Shown here: piece by piece, positions 22,038 through 22,911 of the stretch
How positions within the stretch are numbered: the first letter of the stretch is position 1
Layout of the letters: the number at the start of each line of letters is the position of its first letter
Origin: Nitrosopumilus sp. K4
GTDB lineage: Archaea > Thermoproteota > Nitrososphaeria > Nitrososphaerales > Nitrosopumilaceae
Assembly (NCBI RefSeq): GCF_018128925.1
Contig: NZ_CP067007.1
Span: 1,578,330-1,642,329, forward strand
Direction: 5' to 3'
DNA length: 64,000 bases
Translations under genes and position numbers: made by a program
Notes under the pieces: generated by a model
Database searches by the model: none
What the model was told of the DNA's origin: nothing
The model's input: only the letters and a program-made list of their open reading frames with translations

Positions 22038-22083
22038 ATTTTCAGCTACTTGGCTTTGTATTTAAATTCCCATGAAAATTAAA

Positions 22084-22179
22084 ACGGGCTCGGAGGGCTT
22101 CGATCCCTCGACCTGTAACTTAGGAGGCTACCGCGCTATCCATGTTTCGCGTCAAAAAATGACTCTGCGCCACAAGCCC
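22084..22179 (-). tRNA. tRNA-Arg(CCU) with probable 19-nt D-loop intron
   Basis: Read on the minus strand: acceptor GGGCTTG pairs with CGAGCCC (one G-U), D stem GCGC/GCGC, anticodon arm GUAGC-CUCCUAA-GUUAC with anticodon CCU, T arm GAGGG-AUCGAAG-CCCUC, discriminator G, no encoded CCA. The D loop is too long by about 19 nt. Removing 22146-22164 gives a 77-nt tRNA with a normal D loop (AGACAUGGAUA). The T loop has A at position 54 instead of U, which is unusual. A TTTTAATTTT run follows the 3' end. Confidence 0.82.
22146..22164 (-). other. putative archaeal tRNA intron (D loop)
   Basis: The insert has an internal hairpin GUC-AUUUUUU-GAC. Exon CGC pairs with intron GCG, leaving 3-nt bulges AGA and AAA on the two sides: a relaxed bulge-helix-bulge with a 3-bp central helix. 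Cutting after the second bulge base on each side removes 19 nt and leaves AG/ACAUGGAUA. Exact ends could shift by a base. Confidence 0.6.
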
Positions 22180-22203
22180 AGAAAAAAACACTTTTGTAAT
22201 TAT

Positions 22204-22911
22204 TTAAGCGTAATCAAGATTTTCTTTGATCATTTCTTGAATCTCTTTCCAATTGGAATTTCCTTTATCATTCCACTTTTCAAAGAATACTACGTCTCTA
22301 AGTTCAAGTCTAGGAAGCCAGCCAGCTTTTTCCAAATCTGGCTTTTCTGCAAACTCATCTACATATCCAAGACACAGATATGCAATTGGAACTACATGTT
22401 CTGGTAATTCTAAAACTTCTTTGAGTGTATCATTTGATAAAATACTAACCCAACCAAGTCCAATACCTTCTGTTCTTGCTGAAAGCCACAAATTCTGAAT
22501 AGCACAACAAACACTATACAATCCAGCCTCAGGAATACTTGATCTTCCTATTACAAACGGACCAAATTTTGACGGATCGTAAGTTACACAAAGATTCACA
22601 GGTGATTCTAAAATCCCTTCTAGTTTGAAAGATAGGTATTTTGATCTTTTTGGTTCCTCCACTAATTGTGAAGATCTATTCTTTTCAATTTCAAAAGACT
22701 CTTTGATCTTCTTTTTTGTAGTCATATCCTTTATCAAAATAAAATTCCATGGTTGAGAAAACCCTACAGAAGGTGCATGATGAGCAGCATTTAGAATCTT
22801 TGATAAAATTTCATTCTCTATTGGCTTAGGTGTAAAATGAGATCTTACGTCTCTTCTTGAATAAATTGCCTTGTAAAAGCCATTTTTTTCTTCATCTGTA
22901 AATTCTGACAT
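22204..22911 (-). CDS. bluB: 5,6-dimethylbenzimidazole synthase (BluB)
   Basis: 235 aa nitroreductase-fold enzyme that cuts FMNH2 with O2 to make DMB, the lower ligand of vitamin B12. YSRRDVRSHF at the N-terminus binds the FMN phosphate; APSVGFSQPWNFI and GRSSIPEAGLYSVCCAIQ are BluB-type; the C-terminal PDLEKAGWLPR is a BluB hallmark absent from ordinary nitroreductases. With cobJ in the same window it supports full DMB-cobalamin synthesis, as known for ammonia-oxidising archaea. Flanked by two tRNA genes. Confidence 0.9.
   Translation of the reverse strand: MSEFTDEEKNGFYKAIYSRRDVRSHFTPKPIENEILSKILNAAHHAPSVGFSQPWNFILIKDMTTKKKIKESFEIEKNRSSQLVEEPKRSKYLSFKLEGILESPVNLCVTYDPSKFGPFVIGRSSIPEAGLYSVCCAIQNLWLSARTEGIGLGWVSILSNDTLKEVLELPEHVVPIAYLCLGYVDEFAEKPDLEKAGWLPRLELRDVVFFEKWNDKGNSNWKEIQEMIKENLDYA

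Follow-up and report, generated by a model that had tools for sequence, protein, structure and literature searches.

The non-canonical bulge-helix-bulge (BHB) introns of archaeal tRNAs are reportedly the class defined by Marck and Grosjean. Introns of the D arm are treated as a recognised class in three papers (PMC4090602, PMC12397907, PMC8450103), and a review assigns both (alpha-beta)2-type splicing endonucleases and non-canonical introns to the phylum Thaumarchaeota/Nitrososphaerota (PMC4090602); that the (alpha-beta)2 enzymes of this phylum accompany non-canonical introns is also stated in PMC4090602 and PMC7714728. With a dedicated model, tRNAscan-SE 2.0 predicted 107 non-canonical tRNA introns in Thaumarchaeota (PMC8450103). 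A literature search for D-loop introns in Nitrosopumilus, or for intron-containing tRNAs of ammonia-oxidising archaea, found nothing specific, and the accessible part of a paper on missing tRNA-CNN genes does not discuss a D-loop intron (PMC6000648).

The DNA analysed here (the window, 64,000 nucleotides in all) comprises positions 1578330-1642329 of a 1.65-Mb single-contig complete genome. The tRNAs and proteins that it encodes suggest a member of the Nitrososphaerota/Thaumarchaeota. We conclude that its sole tRNA-Arg(CCU) gene very probably carries a short non-canonical BHB intron between nucleotides 15 and 16, which would be cut by an (alpha-beta)2 endonuclease and the exons joined by RtcB; all three steps, from cleavage through ligation to use of the mature product, are predicted from sequence. 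The features of the locus are as follows, with a caret marking a splice junction:

22085..22179, minus strand: tRNA-Arg(CCU) pre-tRNA gene, 95 nt including discriminator G73 (from the sequence, a covariance model and orthologues)
22165..22179, minus strand: exon 1, comprising the acceptor 5' strand, U8 G9, D-stem GCGC (22170-22167) and A14 G15 (from alignment to intronless orthologues)
22145..22164, minus strand: D-loop intron AGUCAUUUUUUGACGCGAAA, 20 nt, lying between nucleotides 15 and 16 (G15/C16); precisely missing from intronless orthologues
22164..22166, minus strand: predicted 5' splice-site bulge, A14 G15^A (from intronless orthologues; a 3-nt bulge in folds)
22151..22163, minus strand: intron hairpin h', GUCA (22163-22160) paired with UGAC (22154-22151) around a U5 loop (from folding and covariation)
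22148..22150, minus strand: intron GCG, pairing with exon CGC (22169-22167, nucleotides 11-13) as the predicted BHB central helix
22144..22146, minus strand: predicted 3' splice-site bulge, AA^C16 (position from intronless orthologues)
22085..22144, minus strand: exon 2, C16 to G73 (from the sequence and alignment with mature orthologues)
22122..22124, minus strand: anticodon CCU, in the loop CUCCUAA on the stem GUAGC/GUUAC; columns invariant in the alignment of mature tRNA-Arg(CCU)
22104, minus strand: A54 of the T loop AUCGAAG (from the sequence; the loop is also present in three other tRNAs of the genome)
22200..22209, minus strand: likely TATA box GCTTAAATAA, located 21-30 nt before the tRNA gene and conserved in front of intron-bearing and intronless orthologues alike

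The limits of the intron are fixed by the intronless orthologues, which read GCGCAG^CAUGGAUAGCGC or GCGCAG^UAUGGAUAGCGC; the intron is therefore the 20 nt between G15 and C16 and the product of its removal is 75 nt long. This sequence is a perfect cloverleaf in both the minimum-energy and the centroid predicted structures, with a D stem of GCGC/GCGC and a 10-nt D loop, AGCAUGGAUA. When it was aligned with 15 other mature tRNA-Arg(CCU) sequences the mean column identity was 92%, and covariance model R1 aligned over positions 1-75 with this locus as its top match genome-wide. An initial annotation, made from the letters of the window, had described a tRNA-Arg(CCU) with an intron in the D loop and an otherwise perfect fold, and in substance this description is borne out; the intronless orthologues equal the predicted spliced sequence. 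Its measurements need correction: the excess is 20 nt (22164-22145) rather than 19, the spliced form 75 nt rather than 77, and position 22084, which it had taken as the end of a 96-nt gene, lies outside the gene, which runs from 22179 to 22085.

The TATA-like element likely acts as the promoter of the tRNA gene. It overlaps the end of the gene just upstream (22204-22911, minus strand), which, judged by eye, seems to encode a BluB-type protein of nitroreductase fold. A 111-aa open frame at 22072-22407 on the plus strand runs antisense across the tRNA gene and is probably spurious.

Neither ARAGORN nor Rfam at its gathering threshold called the gene, and tRNA-Val(GAC) was their only call in the window; at a relaxed threshold Rfam returned a partial tRNA in which the GCG of the intron serves as a false D stem. 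A second, intact tRNA-Arg(CCU), which would have left room for this copy to be silent, was sought in the complete genome by DNA search, anticodon-loop pattern and covariance model, and none was found. The next matches after this gene were tRNA-Arg(UCG), (UCU) and (GCG), and among the 32 genome matches to the anticodon-loop pattern only the one at 22085..22179 resembles a tRNA. This corrects the tRNA set of the genome: the anticodon of no other tRNA is fully complementary to AGG codons, and two finders in common use overlook this one. tRNA-Arg(UCU) might also read AGG by wobble, so it does not follow that tRNA-Arg(CCU) is essential.

Other tRNA genes of the same genome show irregularities. A tRNA-Gln(CUG) gene (L091, genome positions 1151755-1151860) has two apparent introns: the first, of about 18 nt, follows GGUCAA in the D loop, and the second lies in the anticodon loop; if the first is genuine, this genome has D-loop introns in at least two of its tRNA genes. 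Seeming insertions, likely non-canonical introns, lie in the variable region of a tRNA-Val(CAC) (L083, 364903-364995) and in the 5' anticodon stem of a tRNA-Met(CAU) (L084, 245553-245667). Inspection by eye of the 42 Rfam matches genome-wide did not reveal tRNA-Trp(CCA), Glu(UUC), Leu(UAA) or Arg(CCG), which may be hidden by introns, like tRNA-Arg(CCU), or absent. The A at position 54, which had been singled out as a second oddity of tRNA-Arg(CCU), is real but not peculiar to it: the same T loop occurs in tRNA-Arg(UCG), tRNA-Arg(UCU) and a tRNA-Met(CAU) of the genome. All home-family orthologues read have A54, and outgroups such as family f8 have the usual UUC; A54 marks a group of tRNAs in this lineage and has nothing to do with the intron.

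In the predicted precursor structure the GCG of the intron pairs with nucleotides 11-13 on the 5' strand of the D stem, and this pairing would leave three nucleotides bulged out at each exon-intron junction, with the hairpin of the intron further on. Each bulge would then be cut by an (alpha-beta)2 endonuclease between its second and third nucleotides (AG^A and AA^C), RtcB would join the exon halves, and the D stem would re-form as GCGC/GCGC with its 10-nt loop. The relaxed BHB with exon CGC that the initial annotation had suggested is present in the predicted fold as the CGC/GCG helix and a 3-nt AGA bulge, and the GUCA/UGAC hairpin, which it had also noticed, is stacked beyond that bulge. Splice sites placed after the second bulge nucleotide match those given independently by the orthologue comparison. 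The strict form of the BHB, a 4-bp central helix between two 3-nt bulges, is not formed by the window copy, where the fourth pair is G10-A(22147), and is formed in relatives whose intron has GCGC (for example L041 and L198). This does not exclude the window copy from the non-canonical class, for which the strict form is not defining, since (alpha-beta)2 enzymes also accept relaxed structures (PMC4090602, PMC7714728). The outer helix of the window BHB is a short one, with some non-standard pairing, and when nucleotides 9 and 16 within it were inspected by eye for covariation the result was not convincing.

This architecture is conserved in the home family (f1). Sixty-four introns were read, 50 of them distinct, and all 64 lie at the same point (15/16) and are 16-22 nt long, with variation in length and loop. 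The hairpin averages 3.78 bp in the 50 distinct introns, whereas 2000 shuffles gave 0.65 +/- 0.13 and never more than 1.14. Of the 150 cells for its first three pairs 148 are paired, and 2000 swaps of strands between introns gave at most 143. Neither comparison is corrected for relatedness; by the shuffles the hairpin is not a chance feature. Its second pair is U-A in 40 introns, C-G in nine and U-G in one. The triplet beside the hairpin is GCG, the complement of D-stem nucleotides 11-13, in 47 of the 50 and GUG in two. The base after it, opposite G10, is A in 25, as in the window, C in 16, U in seven and G in two, so that a full fourth G-C pair is available in 16 of the 50.

The initial annotation had proposed that the archaeal splicing endonuclease could cut this structure and that the type of endonuclease in the genome be checked. 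Two proteins with both tRNA intron endonuclease domains (PF01974/PF02778) are encoded. The 181-aa protein (alpha) has its best matches among the catalytic chains of crenarchaeal-type enzymes (2cv8, 3p1z, 3ajv); the Tyr, His and Lys positions are kept, as judged by eye in the alignment, and its K38-P39-K40 aligns without gaps to K44-P45-R46 of the Crenarchaea-specific loop of Aeropyrum pernix, a loop needed for cleavage. In the 220-aa paralogue (beta) the His and Lys are absent from the alignment by eye, as expected of a structural beta subunit. The enzyme is of the broad-specificity (alpha-beta)2 type with the lysine of the Crenarchaea-specific loop. An RtcB ligase is also encoded (E = 3.4e-178). 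With the conserved structure and the intronless orthologues, these enzymes make cutting of the relaxed BHB the best-supported reading, and excision is what we infer. In one intron carrier, G014, the sole RtcB match was distant, at 38% identity; an assembly gap is the probable reason, and otherwise a different ligase would be needed.

Could the insertion instead be retained, to give a mature tRNA with an enlarged D loop and an extra hairpin? A conserved, covarying hairpin by itself would also fit such a structural element, and the whole 95-nt precursor, folded alone, is predicted to retain the D stem, which puts the tRNA fold in competition with the BHB. A retained element, however, would have no need of a conserved GCG complementary to the D stem, and it leaves unexplained both the precise absence of the insertion from orthologues of identical mature sequence and the spread of lengths, 16-22 nt among family members and as much as 29 nt elsewhere; moreover, the organism encodes the splicing machinery. 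We therefore consider retention very improbable. That the locus is a degenerating pseudogene into which a sequence was inserted at random, as the silence of the two finders might suggest, is more improbable still: the exons are strongly conserved across the home family with every stem intact, the upstream TATA-like element is conserved, and the complete genome has no other tRNA-Arg(CCU). An assembly or sequencing artefact, in favour of which nothing was found, can be given practically no weight, as homologous but non-identical introns occur in 124 separately assembled home-family genomes.

These genomes came from a search of 151 home-family genomes with the spliced sequence. The gene was found in 140, and by count of match rows the D arm is interrupted in 124 of them and continuous in 16. 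The view of the initial annotation that introns at this site are far rarer than in the anticodon loop may hold across archaea, but within the home family the site is occupied in about nine genomes out of ten. Introns of 17, 18 and 19 nt interrupt one and the same mature tRNA-Arg(CCU) sequence, which two further genomes encode uninterrupted; these two genomes and the two carriers of 17-nt introns, all with the identical mature tRNA, belong to a single genus (G119 and G145 compared with G077 and G095; L137, L136, L133 and L132). Outside the home family, intronless orthologues are found in families f2, f14, f15 and others. Most genera read in family f8, though not genus g51, have introns of 16-29 nt at the same site, which share the design and in several cases have the strict 4-bp central helix and 3-nt bulges. 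One f12 genome combines a similar D-loop intron with an anticodon-loop intron, and in several other families of the order the tRNA-Arg(CCU) intron is in the anticodon loop only. In a genome of another family (G038), D-loop insertions are seen in tRNA-Arg(CCG) and in a tRNA-Arg(GCG) (L075, L076), the former being 15 nt at the same site.

On a tree of the RtcB proteins of 27 of these genomes, a single-gene tree, absence of the intron requires five changes, four of them inside the home family (G009; G018 with G035; G022 with G088; G119). Loss is the simpler reading than gain within the home family, because most of its members and the f8 relatives carry the intron; the date of the gain cannot be reached from one gene tree. 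From site and design only, we infer that the f8 and f1 introns would be one insertion.

The central helix draws on GCGC of the D stem, which is self-complementary, and this would oblige the intron to finish with a sequence that nearly copies the end of the 5' exon (GCGCAR^...GCGCAR^). A tentative history, which we think less likely than not, is that the 15/16 intron was already present in the ancestor of at least two families of the order and that one of them has since lost it precisely on four or more occasions, with exact loss eased by this built-in direct repeat or by a spliced-RNA template. As a route of loss, plain deletion between the GCGCA repeats was considered. Among the intron-bearing members read of the genus with the loss, the intron mostly finishes in GCGCAA, so a slip between the repeats would leave A15, whereas the intronless genes have G15. 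This would favour an RNA-templated loss or an ancestor whose intron ended in GCGCAG, as in L134. If this history is true, the genus in which identical tRNAs occur both with an intron and without one would offer a natural experiment on intron function. A well-sampled non-canonical intron that is repeatedly and precisely absent beside identical exons also suits tests of loss and function.

In relation to known systems, a group I or group II intron is ruled out: the insertion is 20 nt long, has no ribozyme core and gave no match to an Rfam intron family, and it resembles such introns only in interrupting an RNA gene. Canonical archaeal tRNA introns at 37/38, one of which is carried by the orthologues of some other families, share its BHB logic and enzyme, but the intron described here pairs with the 5' strand of the D stem and not with the anticodon. 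The closest likeness is to the non-canonical archaeal BHB introns: it is short, has a predicted bulge at each splice site and a central helix between exon and intron, and occurs in a genome encoding an (alpha-beta)2 endonuclease. It differs from them in that 15/16 is not among the non-canonical positions named in the available text of the review (20/21, 22/23, 25/26, 29/30, others, 'etc.'; PMC4090602). The understanding of archaeal tRNA splicing is unchanged by this locus, whose insertion, its splicing being predicted, is a non-canonical archaeal tRNA intron of a known kind and a fairly ordinary example of it.
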